A stretch of DNA of 64,000 bases from Rhizoclosmatium globosum (lineage: Eukaryota; Chytridiomycota; Chytridiomycetes; Chytridiales; Chytriomycetaceae), in the NCBI GenBank assembly GCA_002104985.1, contig MCGO01000025.1, positions 434,001-498,000 on the forward strand, read 5' to 3'. Positions 9,040-64,000 of the stretch are shown piece after piece. Numbering within the stretch: position 1 is the first letter of the stretch; each line of letters opens with the position of its first letter. A model generated the notes under the pieces. That model saw nothing but the letters and a program-made list of their open reading frames with translations, was not told the DNA's origin and searched no databases. Made by a program: the position numbers and the translations under genes.

Positions 9040-10635
9040 ATGGCAGGCGACACGGACATGGACGAGTTCGCAGTTCCCGCCGAGTTTCCCGAAATCCTCA
9101 AAGATCTGAACCGCGAAGTTCTTCGTGCGCAGCCAAAGGACATTTACCAGTTCTGCTCAACGTATTTCCACAACAAACTGGCTGAGCAGCGGAAGGAGCT
9201 TATTGAACTTGGTGAGTAGTGAAGGGGGTGTTTTAGGGACTGGGAAGGGAGGTGGTGGGACTGGGTGGCTGTGAAGGGGACGGGATCATCAATGAATTAG
9301 TTTGGGGTGGTTGGTTTGTCTGTTGTGTATCATTAGGGCTGCCCCAGGCTTCCTCTCTTCTCTCCCCTGTCTCTCTTATAAATGTAATTATTAATTTATT
9401 CTTCTTCTCTTTAATCCCTCCTTCTCACTGTCCTTGTCTGTGTCCATCCAATATCCACGTCACCACCACGTACCACTGGATTAATTACACACACTATTCA
9501 AACGCCCATTTTCAAAACACTGGATTTGATGAACAATCAGCCGCTGGAATCACCAGCACCGAAGACGATGAGGGCGTTGCTCAAAAGTCAAAGTCCAAAC
9601 AAGACTTGAAAGAGGAAGATAGCGATGAGGATTCTGACGAGGAATCCGATGAAGAGCCTGCTGCACCACCTCCACCACCAACAAACCATAACCGTGGACG
9701 TCGTACTTCTGTTTCCGCCGAATCAATGGCCCCAACCTTGGACAAGGACTTTGTCGCCGTTGTTATCCCCAAATCCGCTGAGCAAAAGTCCCGGATCCAG
9801 GCCTCTATCAAAAATAACTTCCTCTTCAGAACTTGTGATGAAGAACAGTACAGGGATGTTGTTGACGCAATGTCTGAGAAGCGCGTGGCCGCTGGTGAAG
9901 AAGTCATTAAGCAGGGTGGTGTCGGTGACTTCTTCTATGTCGTTGAAACCGGTACTCTCGATGTCTTTGTCTCCAAAAACGGAAACCCACCTGTCAAGGT
10001 GTACGAGTACGGTGACGGAGGCAGTTTCGGTGAACTTGCTTTGATGTACAACGCTCCTCGTGCTGCTACTGTCGTGGCTACAAGTGAAAGCGTCTTGTGG
10101 GCTTTGGACCGTGTCACTTTCCGTCGAATCTTGATGGAGAACACGAGCAGAAAGAGAAGGATGTATGAAGGGTTCTTGGAGGAGGTCAAGCTGTTGTCTA
10201 GTTTGGAGCCATACGAGCGTCACAAGATTGCTGATGTCTTGGAGAGTCAAGTTTTCAATGAGGGAGAGATTGTGATTCGACAGGGCGATGTTGGAGAACA
10301 GTTTTACATTATTGAGAGTGGAGAGGCTGCTGTTTCTAAACTGATTGATGGAGTGGAGCACCAGTACCCCAACCTGAAGAAGGGTGATTACTTCGGAGGT
10401 ACGCTTGTTTTTCGTTCAAGTTTATCACTTATTTTAACTCCCTTCCATTACAAAAGAACTTGCTCTGTTAACAGACCAACCTCGTCAAGCTACCATTCGT
10501 GCCACTGCTGGGCGATTGAAGGTTGCCACTATGGGTAAAAAGGCCTTTGTTCGTCTTCTCGGACCCGTTGTGGACATTATTAAGCGAAACGCCAACGACT
10601 ATGCACAAATCAAGAGTCATATTGCTAGCCCCTAG
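9040..10635 (+). CDS. cAMP-dependent protein kinase regulatory subunit with RIIa docking domain
   Basis: Exon 1 (from ATG 9040) encodes a RIIa dimerisation/docking domain ([24 protein letters not shown]). The first intron starts GTGAGT at 9212; I could not fix its acceptor, which lies somewhere before about 9545. Exon 2 has an acidic linker, a proline run and the inhibitor site [10 protein letters not shown], an RII-type phosphorylatable site, then cyclic-nucleotide domain A with the phosphate-binding cassette [16 protein letters not shown]. Domain B is interrupted by a 58-bp intron (10399-10456), after which the cassette continues [14 protein letters not shown], ending at stop 10633-10635. 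It binds cAMP and releases the PKA catalytic subunit. A close paralogue lies 214 bp downstream and an adenylyl cyclase just beyond it. Confidence 0.9.
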
Positions 10636-12085: not shown

Positions 12086-15000
12086 TTAATGTTCTCCGCT
12101 GAGTTTATAGACTTTCATTCCTGCGACTTTTATGTCAGTCAATTCAAGTTTGAAGCCATCATAGTTGTTGACCATATCGTATGTTACTTCAGAAATATAA
12201 ACATACGGAATTTCACAATGCTCTTGTACTTTTTCCGCGTTTACCACTAGTAAGTACCGTTGTTAGAACAAAATCATAAGAATGCCGACATCATTAATAC
12301 CTGTATCACCCATCAAATCATAACGAAAATTCTTATCTCCTCCCATAATAGCCCCATAACACGGCCCAGAGTGAATGCCAATCCTCATTGAAATTGTTTG
12401 ATTGAATTTGTCACGCATTACATAAGACGTGTTGACTTGATTCACAATAAAAGACTGCATCTTCAACGCCATAATGCAAACTGATATTGCAGATGTCCGT
12501 GGGTCAGACTCTTTTCCCAAGTTCGACGATACAACATACGCATCGCCAATAGTTGTGATTTTTTCGAGATGAAAGTCCTGTGTAAGATGGTCAAAGTACG
12601 TGAAGAGGTTATTGAATATCTTGACAATGTCCAGTGGTTCCAATTTCGTGGACATTGCCGTGAATCCGGCAATATCCATATGCAGCACAGTTACGAGAGG
12701 GAATTCTTCAAAAAACATTGTGTTTGGGTCTTCGAGTAGTTTTACGATAATTCGTTTGGGCAGAATAGTGGCGAGGATGTGTTCGGACTTCACGGCTTCT
12801 TCATTCACCAAATTCGCCTGTGTCGTGGCGATAAGCTGCATCAGGTATTCCGACTTAAGGGTGATTTCCTTCGAATGGAATATTGTCATATACGGTATTA
12901 TGAGTAGCAGTGGCGCATATGAGACACAGGTCTTATAATTGAATAAGAGATAAAATACTGCCAGAAACAGAGATATTTGAACTTTTCGAATGTAAGATAT
13001 TCCGTCCAGCATGAAGGTATGAATTATGGGAAACTGAGGAAGGACCAGGGGAATCAGCAGAGTGTAGTACTCTAGCCCAAACCATGAAGCCGATGCTAAT
13101 GTTACTATAGTTGAAAGCGTAATGGCAGACCAAAATCCAAGAAACAATACAGCTCTTGGAGATAGCTGGGTTTTCTCTGGTATTGTTGTGACGGCGGTTA
13201 TCATGACTTGGCTTCCAGTTGCAATAAATATGATGAGAATGACACTGACAACAATTCCGGATGCATTAAGTGAAGTGTTTTCAGTAAGGTACAAGTTGAC
13301 CATGGCTATTGATATGACAATAAGCTCACAAATGATACCTTTCACCGAGAAGTTCCAAAACGTTTCATTGTGCTTTTGATTCGTATCAGCGATATATCTT
13401 GATTCAAGCTCTTTGCTGATAAACAAAAGATACGGAGTCATTGAGTTTTGTACCACAGTCATACACATATCACTCATCAAGAACTTTAATGTGCCGGTAT
13501 GCTCCAATATGGCGTGTTCTTCGTCTGTCAGCTCTTCTTTGGCACCTCCAACCAGTGCTAGAGTCGTTAAAAGTAGGACGTATTTCGCCTTATCTGTTTG
13601 AAAGTTTGTCGTAATGATTTCTTTGATGGATTGAATTTCAACTTCGGGATAAGAAATGCTTTCCTTGGATTCCAAGTCTGGTACTTCTGGATCGGCGAAG
13701 ATCGTTTTCTTCTTCTTGATTTCAGTGACTTCCTTTAACAGAAGTGGAGCATCTTCATCAACCCAAGCCGAGGAATCAATGCTCATTCGACCTTTCCTCG
13801 ACGACTTCACTGTTGAAATCCTTTTGATGATTTCTTCGGATTCAATGGCCAGCGTATTATCTTGGTTTGGTTGAAGAGTCGACGATAACCTTTTTTGAAA
13901 CGTGGGTTTACGCGAAATTGCTGTATCATTTGTAAACACCAACGCCGACCAACGCCGTTCTTTTGTATCTTTTCCACCACCAACACTGAGATTAAAGAAA
14001 GTACCATCTTGAGCCATGCTGCTCCTTCGGCTAGCGTCTATGACAGGTATCTCTGCTGGTAAGTATTCAAGTGAATCAACCACTTCAATGTTTGGCACTT
14101 CAATATCTGGAACAGTTATTTTAAACCCAACAGTTCTTGTTGTTTTAGAGCTTCGAGTTGATAACTTCCTGACTTGTGTTGAAGTAGTGTTTTCCGACTG
14201 CAATGAAGTTGTTGATGAAGGGAGTGTTGGAAGAGAATATTTCAGAGGCAGTGCTAATGTCTCGTTACTATCAATCTGCTCCATATTTCGTTTTTTCAAG
14301 GTTTTTCTCTTCAGTAACCTATTTTCGTCGCCTGTTTCAATGACTGATGTGAGAATAGATGCATCGATACGGCGTTCAGCCACAGGTGTGATAATTGAAG
14401 CCTTTCGCGCCCTCATGGCACGCTCCTCTGAGCCCCTCTTTATGTTATTGCATGGAAGCTCACTAACTATAGAATTCCTTGCTTCACGGACTCCTTCGAC
14501 ATTATAGATTTTCATCAACCCTTTCCCTTTCACTTCTCGCTCTCCAATGCAAAACCCAACGAAATCTTAAAACAATTTTTAAGTTAATCTAAGGTGAACA
14601 TTTCACTCACAATTTTCAATTCGTTCCCAAACAGTAGAGGTGACAATTATCTGGCCCTCCTTCGCGATAGCCAGCATTCGGCTTGCAGTATTGACAACAT
14701 CTCCGTAGACCTTAAAACAAGTTAAATTATTTTCCAGCAGAAAATATTAGTACCTCATAACAAAACGTCTTTTTCCCTACAATACCTGCCACTAGTGGTC
14801 CTATATTTCATTCTTTAATCATAATGGCTAAAACATATATTCATACCTATGTGAATTCCGATGCCAATATGAAGCTTTACTTTCAAATCACTGTCATCAC
14901 CAGCATATCTAACTTCATCTTTGAACATATCGCGGTATACCAAGGCCATGTCAACAAGCTCAAGTAAGTGATCCACATCATCTAGTTTATCCAGGCCGCC

Positions 15001-56192: not shown

Positions 56193-57107
56193 ATGATACG
56201 CCATCCTATCCTGGTGTTTGCTATCGTGATCGCCATCGCGGTGTTATCAGCAGCGGATACATCTACAGAATGCCAGGCGTTGAACTCTTTCAATTCTCAG
56301 CTTTTTAGCAACACAGATGCACCGTCATGTCTTAACTATAACTTTCAGAATGGAAACAGTGTCATGTAAGTATACAAGATTGAAGCAATCATTATGCTAA
56401 CGAGAAAGTTAAGTGACATAAAATCTACAAATGGAGAGAACATTGACTCAATGTAAGCAATAGAAAAACAAAGCATTCTTTAACAATTCTGTGCGTAGCA
56501 AAATTACAGGATTTGAGCTGACATGGCAACTTCTCCTTTTTCAAAGTGACAAATTTCCACTCCTCACTTCGCTTGACTTATCCAACAACAAACTTTCTGG
56601 CGCTGTTACTTCCTCGACAAGTCAATACTTTGGCTGTGGTCTAAAGTTATTCGACCTTTCACACAACCTTTTGACATCAGATTATGTTTGCAATGATGGC
56701 ATTTATACGAAAACCAATAGCTGGATTGATTATAATTGTTTCGCTGATTATGCAGACTTTGGACTGACCTTAAATCCCGCATGCCCGTTTTTCTGCGATG
56801 ATTGCGGGCTGCTGACAACTTGGTGGCCTCAAGTCTTCACATATAACTCATCCAAAACATATCATTGCCTGAGAGTTAACATAACCACAACGGACTCCAC
56901 CGCGTGAGCTTTCAATTCTGTCGATTTTTCCCCACTGATACTTACTTCATATAGCATTACTAAGTCAAAAAATCCGCACACTTCTATAAGTACACTGTAA
57001 GCTATCTTTTTCTACATTTGAATGACTTACGAAAGTGCAGCGTCGCATCTGGATTTGGTTTAAGTGGATCCTTGCCTGACATCACACAATTGAAAGACTT
57101 GGAATTG
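56193..57107 (+). pseudogene. Secreted leucine-rich-repeat protein, cut by an LTR element
   Basis: ATG at 56193 opens a signal peptide (HPILVFAIVIAIAVLSAA) followed by an N-terminal Cys-containing cap (STECQALNSFNSQLF, PSCLNYNFQNG). Several small exons follow. The largest (about 56500-56906) has LRRs (FPLLTSLDLSNNKLSGAV; GLKLFDLSHNLLTSDYV) and a Cys-rich loop. A last exon reads FGLSGSLPDITQLKDLEL and then runs directly into the LTR at 57108. The plant-receptor-like repeat style (LxxLxLSxNxLSG) fits extracellular LRR proteins of chytrids. The 3' part lies beyond the insertion and outside the window if it survives. Gene structure between the small exons is uncertain. Confidence 0.6.
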
Positions 57108-57704
57108 TGACCGGGATACCGGCTCGGCCGTCGCCAAGCACGTCAGGTTGTCCATGTCCGACGTAACGGTACCTAGCACGTAGTCAATAGTATCTCACTC
57201 ATACATAAAAAAGGAAAACGTCACCTTATCACCGATCCCCTCATCTCGGATGCGCCAGTGGAAGTCCCCTCCTTCCCACAGTCCGTCCAGTAGGTCCAAG
57301 CCCACATTACAGCGAATCCCTGTCGCAAGCCGTCCTGTTCGCATCCGCAGTCGATCACTGTCCTCGGTCCACATCCACCGAACCCGTCCAGTGATCCCCG
57401 GTTGATCGTTGATCAGCTCCCTATTCCCGTAGCGCGGGTCTGGGTAGGTGGGAAACCATCCAGCTTTGAAACCCGTACTAACCCTCCTGTCCTTACATGC
57501 CTGCAGTCATGGTGCCTCCCTTCCATCCCTTACAGGAGGTCAACCCGACGCTCAGGCTAGACACTACGCTCAAAAGGGGGAGAAACGTACCTAGGCCACC
57601 TCGCTCAAGTATGTCGGGTGGCGCCCCGTCCTGTTCCAGACGCCCTCCACCAACGAAGCCCGTTCGCACGCTGCTTTGTTCACAAGGTAGTTTCTATTTT
57701 TACA
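57108..57704 (-). repeat. LTR of a Ty3/gypsy element (3' LTR in element orientation)
   Basis: The block starts TGACC and ends TACA, so it reads TG...CA on both strands, as LTRs do. Directly inside it, on the minus strand, lies a 12-base polypurine run (GGAAGGGGAAAA, 57705-57716) in the right place for the plus-strand primer. The outer edge falls exactly where the LRR gene stops. The sequence is more GC-rich than the neighbourhood. The second LTR and the target-site duplication are outside the window, so the limits rest on these signals alone. Confidence 0.6.
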
Positions 57705-58103
57705 TTTTCCCCTTCCGGTGCTTTCTCACACAGCCACCGGATAATAAACAAATAAATAAAGAAAGAATAAAAGAGAAGTCCGAAACCCTCCCTCCGTCAG
57801 ATCCCCTGACAGTGGGCCCTTTTCCAAAAAACCCCTAGGTACTCCGTTACCTTGAGTCTGAAACAAGGAAAGGCTACTGACATGTCCAAACGAAACTAAA
57901 AAACCAACACAACCAACTCCACCACTCATCCAGCTGCTGAAGAAATGAAAGGGCTGTTCTCAACTCGCTCCAGGGCGCGAGCCATGAGAACACCTTTCTT
58001 GCCATAATTATATGAGTAGGCGCGTTCGTCCTAGTAGTGCCCTGGTCACCAGTGGATCTAAAAACCTTGTATTTAATTACCTAAAAGTGGTGTTAGGAAG
58101 GGG
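57705..58103 (-). other. 3' untranslated part of the retroelement between pol stop and LTR
   Basis: About 400 bp with no reading frame of note. It starts (minus strand) after the pol stop at 58104-58106 and ends in the polypurine tract that abuts the LTR. It includes an A-rich stretch near 57741-57775. Confidence 0.5.
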
Positions 58104-61100
58104 CTACTTGCGGGTAGCCTCATCCTCTTTTTGATTCCTCTTAAGTAATCTTAAAGCTCTTTGTTCAACGGCGTCGGTAACTACAGGTGGTTGGATAATC
58201 TTTTCTACCGGTTTGGCTTTTGTCTTTCTTTTCTGCTGTTGGACTTCAGTTGGAGTCGTGTCAATCTCAAGTGGTATTGCTAAGTCACCACTAACTTTCT
58301 CAGACATTCGCTCTTTCATCTTTTTGTATTCATTCCATAAAGGCCTATACTTTCTTTTATTTTGTTCCCAGAAGTCACTTATAACTTCCAAGGGCATATC
58401 CTCTTCTCGTTGCCAATGGCGTTCCTTTCGTCCCCACATCTCCCAACTGGTGAGATACTCAAAGGAGGTTGGATTGACAGTCTTTTTAACATCTAAGATT
58501 TTATCAATAATTAATTTTGGGTTATCAATGTCTTCTTGACTAAAAGTAGGGTCAATCTTTGCAAGTAGCCAAGGGCTTGCGCCGGATGCATATTGTTGTT
58601 TGTGGGTAGGTCTTCTTGTTAGCTTCTCATCGTCTAACCATTTCTTGTACTCAGTCTCAAAGTCATCACCTGCTAATTTCATGGCATCCTCTGCACTGTC
58701 AACAGGTACTCGCGCTGTGAATGGTCTGAGTCGACTAGCATGCACTGTTCTAACAACAATTTGGTTACCAGGGAATCGTTCAACGACTCTATATTTTGTT
58801 TGAGCGTCTCCTTCCGCTCGGTCAACAATTCTAACAGGTCCAACCCATCGTGGAATAAACTTCTTTCCAACTTTAAGGCGTTGCGCTTCAGCAGTAAGGG
58901 GAACCGCCAACCAGGCGCGCTCTCCTACTCTAAATTCATGAGAAGGGTCAACATTACTATTTGTTTGGGTTGCATACTTTTCTTGTTCTTTATTAACATT
59001 ATCTATAATGACAGATCTAGAAGCTTGTAGGCCTCTTACTAATCTCTCAGTAAATGATTTGATGTCTTCTGGTGAGGTTTCGCCAACCACCGCTACATCA
59101 TCAAAGTCACTGTCCATCTCGTTCACTAAAGTAATGGGAGTTTCATCATTTGTGGGTTCAAAGTCATTAATTATAAAAGTTTGGATAGGAGCTTCATCAA
59201 ATAAGAAGGATTCACCAACTGTAAAGAATTGAGTGGCTCCATCCCACAAAGGGACACCTCTCACTACAACAAAGTCTTTAGTAGTTGCATCAACTAAAGG
59301 TATGATGTAATCCACATATGTTTTAGTGGTAAAGTTATAGGCGCGGTACATACAGCGTAAAATACCTGGTGTTCCCAAGAACAGCTGAGGTTCAGGGTTA
59401 TCTTCAGGGAGACTATCAGGTAAGTTGTTTCCTATTTGTATTAAGTTCTTTCGGGAGAAGACATTTATTATTCTTTTTGCAGGTTTGTTCTCAAGTACAG
59501 TTCTGGCTTTGCCATCCGCTGTTGCCGCTCCAATGCGGAAGTTCCCAATTCTTGGGATATCTGTCCCATCTTCTAATTTAAAAGTATATGGAACTGGGTA
59601 GTCTGTTCGATAATCTTGTTTTGGGTGTAAGTTGTGAATGAGGACTATTGCATCTAAGTTGTATTTTTCAAACAGTTTCCTCAATACGCGTTGTGGGTTA
59701 TATTCTGTTTCGTATCCATAAAGATGTTTGGATAGTTTACTTTGAATAAACTGTCGAAAGGATCGGTAGGACGCGATGGCTATTTTAGGGAGTTTTTCCG
59801 GGAATGGTTCTTCAACAGTTTCTTGGGAAGTCATAGTGAGTGTCTGTGGGGTGGGGTCAAGAGAAGTTGGTTTTTCAGTAAGGTCTGCCTCACAATCAGG
59901 TAGGACTTTTTCAATGTCAATGGGGTTAATTCCCAGAAGTAAGTCAGAAGGTAATCGCGCGTCAAATCCATGGAACATAAAGAATGGTGTTTCTCCTGTA
60001 GTGCCATGGGCATGAGTTCTATACGCAAATAAAACATAAGGGAGTATGGTTTCCCAATCATCAAAAGTGTATTTATTAATGTAATGTCTTATTCGTTCTG
60101 ATAAGTTTTTGATAAGTCGCTCGACCATCCCATTTGCTCTGGGCCAGTAGGGACTGGTGAACGTCTTATAAAATCCAAATCTCCTGGAGAGTTGCAACAT
60201 AAGATTGCTGTTGAAGGGTTCTCCACCGTCAGAATGTAAGTAAACAGGGACGCCGGTATGGCAGAATACTTTCTCTACTAACGCCTCAGCGACTGTTTTG
60301 GCTTTAAGGTCCGGTATTGGGATGGCTTCTGCCCATTTAGTGAAAGAGTCTACAACAACCATGATGTATTTGTTACCTGTTTTCTCATCTGGTTTTGGTG
60401 GTTGCATAAAGTCAACAAACACTCTTTCCCAAGGGTGTTTTCCAATTGGAATTGGAAAGACATATCCAGCTTTTTGCCGGAAATCTTTGGCAGTATTACA
60501 TTCAGGACAAGATTTTATTTCATTTTCTAAATCGTTCTTTACTGTTGGCCACCAATAGCGATCAAGGAGGGGTGTATAAACTTTCTCAAACCCATAATGT
60601 CCAGCAAACAGGTCTGAGTGGAGGAGATCCAGGATTTCTCGTCGCATGTTGTCTGGTACACATAACGTCACGCGCGCTGGTTGCTTTCGAACTTGTTGTT
60701 TTGAGGCGTTATGGATTTTGAAAAGGAGTCCATTGCTGTCGACGATGAGGTCCTTTGACAATGCAATTAGGTTATCTTTTGTTAAAGTTGTTTCACCCTC
60801 CTTTGGTTCAGGTACTGTACCATACTGGCGAAATCTTAAAAGTGGGCCAAAGTGGGTATCGGCGAGTTGAAGTTCACAGATTTCCTTAACTGTTTTACCT
60901 GAATTCGGTAATGTTATGTTAAGATTTGTTTCAAAGTTATCAATGTTTACATCTGAACAGAAGGTATAGTATTGAGGATTCTCTTTATTTGTCCATGATG
61001 TTCTGTCAATCAAAATCGATTTATCATTTCCGTGGAAAGTTGTGTGTAACTGCAGGGCGACGTGGTCGCTTTCCCATTTTCTTGAGTCGATCCTCACGTC

Positions 61101-63022
61101 GAAGTGTTTCTTATCAATCCTATTGTCTATAAGTATGTGGTCAACTCTCCAAAAAGGGTATACTTTATTATCATATGCTTTTAAAAGCCAAGTAGAGCCA
61201 TGAGGTTCTGGGTGTTTTACTCGAAAGCCGTCGTGGAAGTGTTCAGTCATTGATTTGAACCAAATTTGTTCTTCGGCGCTGATAGTCGAACCGAAACAAT
61301 CCACCAAGTTTTCTTCGACGGCAAACGGCATCACATCTTTCTCCGAATCTGGGGCAATGTTTAAGTCGCCCATAAGCAGAACAAAGTGTTTCTTACGTAG
61401 GTGTAGGCAGTGTCGTTTTAATTTTTCAAGGAAGTTTATTTTAAATAGATGTCTTTTCTCATCTCTATTCCCACTTGGTGCGTAACAGTTGACAATAGCA
61501 AAGTCGCCGAGTGTAATGGTAAGGATACGACCCTCCGGGTCAGCTTCCTCCATCGCGCCGTACGAGTGAATCTCGCCTTTCAAGTCCTTTCTCCATAGAG
61601 TGGCTACTCCGTAATGTCCCGAAAGGTTGTCGCTTATAGCGCAACTCCAATTTGGAAGGGTTTGCATTTGTGAAAGGAGTTTTGTGGACTTGCGTCCCAG
61701 TCGCGTCTCTTGAAAACATATGACGCTTCCTCCTAACATGTCTAAGTATCGTTCCATAATTGTAGCCTCGGTCTGTTCTTCATTTATTTCGGTATTACTC
61801 TTCTTCCAAGCTGTGTATGAATTACTAAAACCATTTAGGTTCTGAGACGTGAAGTTCAGACTTGGGCATCGCGTTCCTTCGAGTGGTTCGCAGTGTTTCT
61901 TATAGGCCTCGAAAGATGGGATCTTTTTATTGACAGCACGTAGCTGGTCGTTCTTCTTTTGTAGTTTCTTCCATATTCCTCGCATCGTATCACCAAGTGA
62001 GGTAAATTTGTTGATTGTTTCGTTTGCAAGTTTAATAAAAGCAGTTTTATTGTTTTGAGATAAAGCTTGAACCAATGTTGTTGGTTCTGTTTGAGTACCA
62101 ACGTTCTCAAATTCTTTTTCTTTTCGTCCTAAATATACTCTTGATAGAGTGTCGGCAACAATTTGCGTGTCGCCGGGAACATGGACTAGTGTCAAGTCGT
62201 AATGCGAAAGGGCATAGGCCCATCTTGAGAACCGTCCGGTAAGTGCTCCATTTTTGAAAAGGCTTAATAAGGCGCTATGATCGGTTTCGATAGTCGCCGG
62301 TTGGTTGAAGATATATCGATCGAAACAGGTTACTGCCCATATCACCGCGAGCCCTTCGCGATCCGTATTTGAGTAACGTTTTTCGACGTCTGTAAGTGTT
62401 CTAGATATAAATGCGACCGGTTTACGGTCAGTTTTCTTGTTCGATTCTCCTTGAATAAAAAGAGCTCCGCCAAGTCCCGTGCCGGACGCATCGCACTCAA
62501 TCACTAATTTATCACCTTCTTTTGGAATTGTCATAAGCGAATCCTTGCAAAGTTCGCGTATAAGTGTATCGAAGGCGTGTTGACACCAAGGGTCCCAAAT
62601 AAACTTTACACCGTCTTTTATTAGGTTATAAAGAGGTGCTGATATATTAGCAAAATCTTTAATAAAACGTCGGAAGTATTGCGCGAACCCTAAGAATCGT
62701 TGCATTTTGGAGACGCTTGTTGGCCGTTCCCAATTTCGTAGGTCCTGCATTTTACTTGGATCTTTTCTGAGGCCGTCCTCGGAGATTACATGTCCTAAGA
62801 AAGGGAGTGAAGTATGGAAGAGTTTACATTTACTTGGTTTCAATTTTAAGTTGAACTGTTCGAGTCTACTGAAAATCTCTTCTAAGTGTTTGAAGTGTTC
62901 GTCAACCGAGTCACTAAATATTATAATGTCGTCGACGTAAACGGTAAATACCCATTTAAAACCAAAAAGGACTCGATTTGCACGTTGGGATGTTGGGAGT
63001 GCGTTAATCAATCCGAAAGGCG
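58104..63022 (-). mobile_element. Ty3/gypsy pol polyprotein with an APE-type endonuclease domain between RNase H and integrase
   Basis: One uninterrupted frame of about 1635 aa. Domains by residue: C-terminal part of reverse transcriptase (YVDDIIIF at 25-32); RNase H (IECDASGTGLGG about 171-182, DREGLAVIWAV 217-227, TDHSALLSLF 243-252); spacer; ExoIII/APE1-like nuclease about 384-657 (LNFTSQNLNGF, VICFQETRLG, FVLLMGDLNIAPDSE, FWRVDHILID, ESDHVAL); spacer; integrase with HHCC (H798, H805, CPEC) and D867/D928/E964; about 285 residues of unknown type; GPY/F-like module about 1358-1430 (WVGPVRIVDR, VHASRLRPF); chromodomain-like segment about 1500-1550 (IIDKILDVKK, RHWQREEDMP). The frame opens with ATPFGLINA just after a stop near 63024, so the fingers and first palm motif of the RT are not in this frame. 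It is a chromovirus-like LTR element with an unusual extra nuclease. Confidence 0.85.
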
Positions 63023-64000
63023 TAGCTTAAGTCTTCAGTGATGGGGATTTGTCAAACCACCGAGAGTTACCACAATGTGGTCTTTAAGCATTGCTGTCCT
63101 TCCTAAACCTTCAAAAAGGGGAATCTTTGCACCTGGGTTGAATTTAATTTCATGTGGTGGTAGTCTTTCCGTACCAGTCACGATGCCTTTGCGGAAGACA
63201 TTCGCGAAGCTTCGTATCATAGCGTCCATTCGAGCGAGAACATTGTCGCCAAAAGTTCTAGAAATATGGGAGTGTGGAATCTATTCCCAGATTTCATCGT
63301 CCGTCAATGTACTTGCCGGCGGTAGATAATTGAGATGATCTTCCCGACTCTTATCTTTTGTTGGTATAGAGTTCATGATGAGATTAGAATTGTGGTCTTC
63401 GCCTATTTCAGTTGTAGACGTCAAAGATCAACGGTGTTCGGGGTGATTTCGATCGATAAAGTAGTGAATAGATTTTATCAAAGTTTGGGACTTTGGCTTG
63501 TTCGCAGATCGACAGTGTTGACCAATTCGATTCATTCGAGATTAAGCTACAACAGTCGTCATCAAATTCTTCGGCGGCGTCGATAGTCGGTGTTTTGAAG
63601 TAAAGGGCCGTTTCTGAATAGTCAGTTTTTTTTTTTATTCAAGAAATAATAGGTAAGATGTGAAAGAAAGGGAAGAAGAGAGGACTTGCGTTCCTCTGGC
63701 TGGTCAGAATATTCCGACGTACCCAAAAATTTCATTTGTCGTTTTCTTCCTTCACATCCTTGTCAACCAGGCAAGGCTCAAGTGATTCATATTCGTAAAA
63801 TAAAGAGTTTATTCGATTCGTAAAGTGTAAAAGGTATTAGGGTAGGTGAGGGGAGTTGGAATAAGCCTGCTCCTTCCATCCTCCAGTCACTACAGTCTTG
63901 TGTTTGTTACACTACTGAATCGTTTCGGAATCGATTTCGAAGTGTATGGTGCTGTATTTGTAGTTGTTGTTGTTGTAGTTGCTGGCGATCCTCGATGATT
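63023..64000 (-). mobile_element. Upstream, broken part of the retroelement (protease/RT linker remains)
   Basis: On the minus strand, 63035-63229 reads SFANVFRKGIVTGTERLPPH followed by EIKFNPGAKIPLFEG, the linker that precedes RT in Ty3/gypsy elements (LPPHxxxxxxxPGAxP). About 100 expected RT residues between it and the pol frame are missing, including the first catalytic Asp. Short open pieces continue upstream to about 63600 in different frames (for example LPPASTLTDDEIWE). From 63600 to 64000 I see no clear coding sequence; there is a poly-T run near 63628. Gag, primer-binding site and 5' LTR are not identified and may lie beyond the window. Confidence 0.5.

Follow-up and report, generated by a model that had tools for sequence, protein, structure and literature searches.

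An ExoIII/APE1-type nuclease within the pol frame of a Ty3/gypsy-like retroelement lineage of the chytrid Rhizoclosmatium globosum

By the usual division among retroelements, apurinic/apyrimidinic (AP)-type nucleases go with elements that have no long terminal repeats (LTRs), and integrases go with LTR elements. Long interspersed nuclear elements (LINEs) have neither LTRs nor a DDE integrase, and their nuclease serves priming on the target. Here we describe a Ty3/gypsy-like element of the chytrid fungus Rhizoclosmatium globosum whose pol frame contains an ExoIII/APE1-type nuclease. It lies in a stretch of 64,000 nucleotides, referred to below as the window (assembly GCA_002104985.1, contig MCGO01000025.1, positions 434,001 to 498,000 of the forward strand).

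In the parts of the literature covered, domains of the Pfam family Exo_endo_phos are tied mostly to LINEs. Chytrid LINEs carry apurinic endonuclease domains (PMC9926174), fungal Exo_endo_phos domains have been assigned to the LINE order (PMC10799480), and a figure legend names the domain for dinoflagellate LINE and DIRS retrotransposons (PMC5890265). Extra domains, chromodomains among them, are known from retroelements, as are complex elements built up by multiple insertions (PMC3248453); accessory domains of LTR elements include a chromodomain and a DnaQ-like exonuclease (PMC6338049). The passages covered of one further paper make no mention of a nuclease of this type (PMC8778642). The nearest case is that of the Kuafuorterviruses, in which Exo_endo_phos is "only present sporadically" and is maybe host-derived (PMC11673190). 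The original prediction for this locus knew of no described Ty3/gypsy lineage with an APE domain in pol, and we likewise found none in the portions covered of the open literature (PMC), a scope that leaves subscription papers, Repbase reports and preprints outside.

The window copy is read from a single open frame of 1640 codons, truncated on its 5' side. Along the 1640 amino acids (aa), Pfam places RVT_1 (C-terminal part only), RNase H, Exo_endo_phos, Integrase_H2C2 and rve, in that order. The Exo_endo_phos match spans residues 395-655 (E 3e-9) and scores 37.4 bits against a cut-off of 24.5. These results bear out the prediction of reverse transcriptase (RT), RNase H, ExoIII/APE1-type nuclease and integrase in one frame, including the nuclease motifs that it named. 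The parts are as follows.

61041..61862, minus strand: ExoIII/APE1-type endonuclease/exonuclease/phosphatase (EEP) domain within pol (residues 389-662, counted along the stop-to-stop frame)
58104..63026, minus strand: open pol frame of 1640 aa in the window copy, truncated on its 5' side (reading frame and Pfam domains)
62784..63020, minus strand: C-terminal part of RT, YVDD included (Pfam RVT_1, profile positions 120-205)
62199..62597, minus strand: RNase H (Pfam PF17919/PF17917)
60486..60659, minus strand: zinc-binding domain of integrase, H2C2 (Pfam)
60144..60437, minus strand: integrase core, rve (Pfam)

The same arrangement recurs across the genome. When the R. globosum assembly (one genome; 56.9 Mb, 420 contigs) was searched with the nuclease, 50 match rows were obtained, 18 of them full-length and stop-free. 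Copies may include haplotype duplicates, given that the stops of C68 and C79 are equal in number and kind. By identity to the nuclease of the window, the intact nucleases belong to subfamilies A (99-100%, window included), B (48-49%), C (50%), D (51%) and E (39-40%). The order RT-RNase H-Exo_endo_phos-H2C2-rve was found in one frame in all six long frames scanned, which cover A to E. The prediction had staked itself on the nuclease block being present in other copies, and it is, in the same order, in four subfamilies beyond that of the window. Longer reads revealed CCHC in B and C (Pfam) and in E (motif), as well as a protease-like DTG in C and E, with none in the stretches of A and B read; the longest single frame of the lineage reaches 3901 aa. 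Among 79 integrase-core matches in the genome, 36 have a same-strand nuclease within 6 kb upstream, and in 32 it lies at 0.58-0.91 kb, as in the window. From the 43 remaining matches, L001, L008 and C399 (L124) read as gypsy/chromovirus-like, with no nuclease in the stretch covered, and L002 reads as copia. The spacing from RNase H to H2C2 is 514-561 aa in A-E; in L008, a chromovirus in this genome, it is 88 aa. A chance insertion or mis-assembly is ruled out by the multiple copies, their shared order, and their location on different contigs with different target duplications. We are almost certain that this is a Ty3/gypsy-like pol lineage in which an ExoIII/APE1-type nuclease is a retained part of pol. 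The nuclease was probably gained before the five known subfamilies diverged.

The nuclease also bears the marks of purifying selection. We compared 17 nuclease pairs, of which five were identical, eight were unsaturated within-subfamily pairs, and four were saturated. In the unsaturated pairs, the ratio of nonsynonymous to synonymous proportions of differences (pN/pS) was 0.096, 0.041 and 0.045 in A, 0.000, 0.056, 0.050 and 0.173 in B, and 0.017 in D. Each of these pairs had fewer replacements than the neutral expectation (binomial p <=0.006), although pairs that share sequences are not independent. Flanking pol gave 0.017, 0.046 and 0.039 in subfamilies A and B (L011-L013, upstream only; L021-L028); downstream pol was left out for the A pair and the E pair, where one row has stops. 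The saturated pairs C-D, E-E, B-C and A-C (pS 0.79-0.93) yielded 0.13, 0.21, 0.30 and 0.36, which are upper guesses; the E pair (L035-L037) lies within one subfamily but is saturated and was counted here. The nucleases of the window copy and L011 differ by 8 synonymous and 3 replacement changes. A neutral passenger should show a pN/pS of about 1 and eroded active sites; neither was seen, and these data contradict it.

Selection on the active-site residues, on which the prediction also rested, is reflected in the invariance of the catalytic positions. Residues E52, Y127, R137, D166, N168, D211, R239, D241, S265, D266 and H267 occur in all 14 retroelement nucleases compared, and N8 in 13 of 13 (one fragment begins later). 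The APE1 counterparts of the conserved residues are presumably N68, E96, Y171, D210, N212, W280, D283, D308 and H309. We take W280 of APE1, which lines the abasic-site pocket, to match W238 of the retroelement nuclease. This tryptophan is present in 8/8 nucleases of the A-E lineage and 11/11 ExoIII/APE1 proteins, and in none of four LINE and three APE2 nucleases. With the full catalytic set and the pocket tryptophan kept, the domain is a predicted member of the AP endonuclease family.

Several comparisons place the nuclease closer to cellular AP endonucleases than to LINE endonucleases of the same genome. The nuclease scores 106.3 bits with TIGR00633 (xth), over the curated cut-off of 99.05, and falls below that of the narrower TIGR00195 (97.3 versus 182.55). 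It matches ExoIII/APE1 in PDB and has the fold of ExoIII/APE1 in structural comparison; LINE endonucleases are absent among the 50 entries shown, which does not amount to exclusion. Identity to the ExoIII-like proteins aligned is about 21-28%. The LINE nucleases of the same genome stay below the TIGR00633 cut-off (L058 35.7, C212:299580 85.3, C69:32583 79.2), and the nine PDB sequences matched by L058, the only LINE nuclease compared to PDB, are all LINE-type. LINE-type frames with an EEP nuclease of their own were seen at C212:299580 (nuclease part only), C69:32583 and C46:635822, and all three fall short of the ExoIII cut-off. The retroelement nuclease clears the TIGR00633 cut-off and has ExoIII/APE1 matches in PDB, against a LINE-1 endonuclease match for L058, and capture from a LINE is thereby disfavoured.

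Insertion is of the kind expected from an integrase. The 13.06-kb element at C113:327074-340132, with the 706-bp LTR of family A, and the 15.2-kb element at C114:7168-22328, with the 953-bp LTR of family B, each have an LTR pair that is 100% identical and ends in TG...CA; other LTR pairs are known to have equal scores to the query only. An exact 4-bp target duplication was found at 19 of 22 sites in two subfamilies (17/20, the window copy with GAAT counted, plus GAAC at C113 and GGTC at C114 by eye), with 18 different words among the 19. Of the sites without a duplication, C286 is seemingly recombinant (its right flank is that of C79), C268 adjoins element interior and is not a solo LTR, and C101 has no evident reason. 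Two TG...CA LTRs, the order RT-RNase H-H2C2-rve and a short, constant 4-bp duplication are all as in a Ty3/gypsy LTR element, and the LTRs, integrase and fixed duplications set the element apart from APE-type LINEs. Together, these observations indicate DDE-integrase-type insertion. LINE-like target-primed insertion is ruled out by the duplications and the TG...CA ends of the LTRs. Beside the 5' LTR, families A and B share a conserved block, GGGGGCCCAAC (C113:327780 onward, C114:21375 downward). When considered as a tRNA primer site, its 12-nucleotide complement was found in no tRNA gene (five non-element places in the genome), and none was found in the element's own LTR.

By its domain matches, a further gypsy-like lineage, distant from the first, likewise carries an ExoIII/APE-type nuclease, either ahead of RT or in the RNase H-integrase interval. 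Group G2 (L059 of C13, L055 of C383; L110 by tree alone) has RT-RNase H-nuclease-H2C2, with no Pfam match to rve at E 0.01 and a D, D, E triad by eye. G3 (C146: L053, L067) and G4 (C301: L066, L120; C368: L111, L121) have nuclease, RT, RNase H and H2C2, followed by rve in C146 and C301. TIGR00633 is passed by G2 and G3 (4/4 scanned) and by C368 (121.5), but not by C301 (68.7). By eye, the RT active-site motifs of the C146, C301 and C368 frames are odd: QDD, FIDD and FVDD.

The trees separate these lineages but do not settle the donor of the nuclease or the choice between one and two captures. We included 8 of the 120 listed Exo_endo_phos proteins of 150-480 aa, three of the seven of 385-1225 aa, 14 retroelement nucleases and four LINE nucleases, leaving out host EEP loci L112, L113, L115 and L119, near-duplicates L116 and L118, and LINE L123. 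The A-E lineage (G1) formed one clade (99/99) and G2-G4 another (99/99), as they did in the RT-RNase H tree, which holds three groups only (97/98 and 100/100). The best nuclease tree joins the two with support of only 57/57. Approximately unbiased (AU) tests rejected no grouping: G1 with LINEs (p 0.36), G2-G4 with LINEs (0.29), G1 with ExoIII/APE1 (0.19), G2-G4 with ExoIII/APE1 (0.25), all retroelement nucleases with ExoIII (0.34), or the nuclease-first G3 and G4 together (0.079). The outcome was no better once four long rows had been dropped. Of the predicted capture from a LINE or a host APE gene, the LINE donor is disfavoured by similarity (ExoIII model, PDB), and the trees reject neither. 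No host APE1 or APE2 gene was identified in the genome beyond weak candidates such as C113:179077.

Database searches extended this comparison. Among 2508 matches of 150-480 aa, the best 120 comprise two R. globosum fragments, the rest being Exo_endo_phos proteins, with ExoIII as the named ones. In five of the seven matches of 385-1225 aa, Exo_endo_phos is combined with PF06839, as in APE2; the other two have PolA-type domains. None of 391 candidates of 902-2870 aa was another polyprotein with the nuclease, a search that also missed the long frames of R. globosum itself and so does not show absence elsewhere. In IMG/VR, 44 pattern matches included no relative, although records near the genome of the window may be excluded.

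What might such a nuclease do for an LTR element? The reading that we favor, with a likelihood that we place slightly under an even chance, is repair of the element's own complementary DNA (cDNA) by an AP endonuclease and 3' end-cleaner that travels with pol. The prediction had named AP-site use and processing of cDNA ends among possible roles, and it is these that we prefer. The nuclease would be made and packaged with pol, would nick the cDNA at abasic sites, and would clear blocked 3' ends so that synthesis could be completed; integrase would then insert the cDNA with a 4-bp stagger. We infer activity, packaging, release by the protease and action on cDNA. The reading is preferred because of the ExoIII/APE1 identity with its pocket residue, the place between cDNA-handling enzymes, the selection and the integrase footprint, and target cutting is left to integrase because of the 4-bp duplications. 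The nuclease would be the repair counterpart of lentiviral dUTPase, which keeps uracil out of cDNA. That enzyme is encoded between RNase H and integrase (IN), according to the part of the source covered (PMC4531489). Two observations weigh against cDNA repair. No dUTPase or glycosylase domain was found in the scanned stretches, which leaves position and chemistry alone to the dUTPase analogy. In addition, the pocket tryptophan is present in none of the six G2-G4 nucleases, and AP specificity may therefore not be the shared function.

The foremost alternative, which we judge unlikely though worth serious attention, is trimming of cDNA ends, whereby 3'-5' exonuclease activity or cleavage of RNA/DNA hybrids would clear leftover primer or surplus nucleotides from the ends ahead of integration. 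Enzymes of the ExoIII type act both as 3'-5' exonucleases and as RNases H. Priming and end formation may be unusual, given that in the 12-nucleotide test no tRNA 3' end fits the block next to the 5' LTR, and that the LTR holds no complement to it. Yet the LTR ends are ordinary TG...CA, and the element already has an RNase H.

The original prediction had offered target choice as one role for the nuclease. On this reading, it would nick chromosomal DNA to guide or open the target as LINE endonucleases do. The fold family is common to LINE endonucleases, the second lineage has the domain before RT in a LINE-like position, and no tree test rejects a grouping with LINE nucleases. However, LTRs and exact 4-bp duplications point to integrase, which makes target cutting by the nuclease unlikely; if it opened the target, a constant 4-bp stagger would be surprising. 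The varied words among the duplications (site preference was assessed by word count only), the intact H2C2 and rve, and the ExoIII/APE1 score of a domain whose LINE counterpart L058 matches LINE-1 endonuclease also speak against nicking of the target, and this part of the prediction we regard as improbable. An action beyond the element's replication, such as one directed at host defence or at rival elements, has a similarly slim chance; it is compatible with long-term selection, but fusion in pol between two cDNA-acting enzymes in five scanned subfamilies points to the particle. A functionless captured gene or an assembly artefact is hardly credible, for only the defective state of the window copy favors it, against 18 stop-free full-length rows, insertions with different duplications on different contigs, purifying selection and an active site that is invariant across subfamilies.

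The window copy itself is defective. Compared with the long copy at C113, its RT is cut on the 5' side with about 250 bp missing, and it is without the approximately 5 kb that carries the gag-protease part. Its 5' LTR lies just outside the window, from C168:498217 onward, and is split by about 4.2 kb of other sequence (C168:498792-502991). The chromodomain-like end that the prediction attached to the nuclease and integrase fared less well than they did: there is no Pfam match at E 0.1, and a profile comparison against two chromodomains from this genome yielded a probability of 6% (E 0.006 in a one-template comparison). In families A-C, the roughly 700 C-terminal aa of pol that follow the integrase core give no firm Pfam match; they show a GPV-type motif by eye and this unconfirmed end. 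The remaining parts are listed here.

58239..58523, minus strand: chromodomain-like tail, unconfirmed (profile comparison, probability 6%)
57106..57811, minus strand: 3' LTR, the 706-bp LTR of family A, TG...CA; its flank GAAT equals the word beyond the 5' LTR at C168:503128
63076..63637, minus strand: decayed remains of the upstream RT of this copy, in pieces 79-89% identical to the long copy
63725..64000, minus strand: what remains of the 5' leader (88% to the long copy)

Elsewhere in the window, a cyclic-nucleotide-binding protein (9237-10538, plus strand) lies about 1.7 kb from a frame with an adenylate/guanylate cyclase domain (12263-14566, minus strand).

Our findings bring together, in one polyprotein, an AP-type nuclease and an integrase that both keep their active-site residues under selection. 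Because the footprint points to integrase for insertion, the nuclease is free for another job; the simplest candidate is repair of the element's own cDNA, and we came across no description of such a role in a Ty3/gypsy element. More generally, with two distant gypsy-like lineages each keeping an ExoIII/APE-type nuclease at one of two places in pol, of which one is the RNase H-integrase junction that holds dUTPase in lentiviruses, LTR retroelements may encode base-excision repair, a wider proposal that we hold as less likely than not. If true, uracil or abasic damage to cDNA would be a recurrent barrier that retroelements meet with a repair enzyme of their own. The idea that cDNA damage limits retroelements becomes testable with the isolated domain.

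Kuafuorterviruses, compared by description in the part of the source covered (PMC11673190), are likewise LTR elements with the same Pfam Exo_endo_phos; they come from animals, and their RT motifs are IADD, VADD or LADD versus YVDD or YIDD by eye here. Lentiviral dUTPase shares the position between RNase H and IN and is an extra enzyme directed against uracil in DNA (PMC4531489, in part), but it is unrelated in fold and chemistry. APE-type LINEs also have an EEP-fold nuclease in a retroelement, from which our elements differ by integrase-type 4-bp duplications and by the lower similarity of their nuclease to LINE nucleases. With ExoIII/APE1 (TIGR00633, xth), the nuclease shares the fold, the full catalytic set, the pocket tryptophan and a score over the curated cut-off, whereas it is part of a retroelement polyprotein, is only about 21-28% identical, and forms its own clade. 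Finally, the lineage has in common with chromovirus-like Ty3/gypsy elements (Metaviridae) the LTRs, CCHC (B, C, E), DTG (C, E), the order RT-RNase H-H2C2-rve and a short fixed duplication; it departs from them in its extra ExoIII/APE1-type nuclease, in the 514-561 aa between RNase H and H2C2 where L008 has 88, and in a frame of up to 3901 aa.

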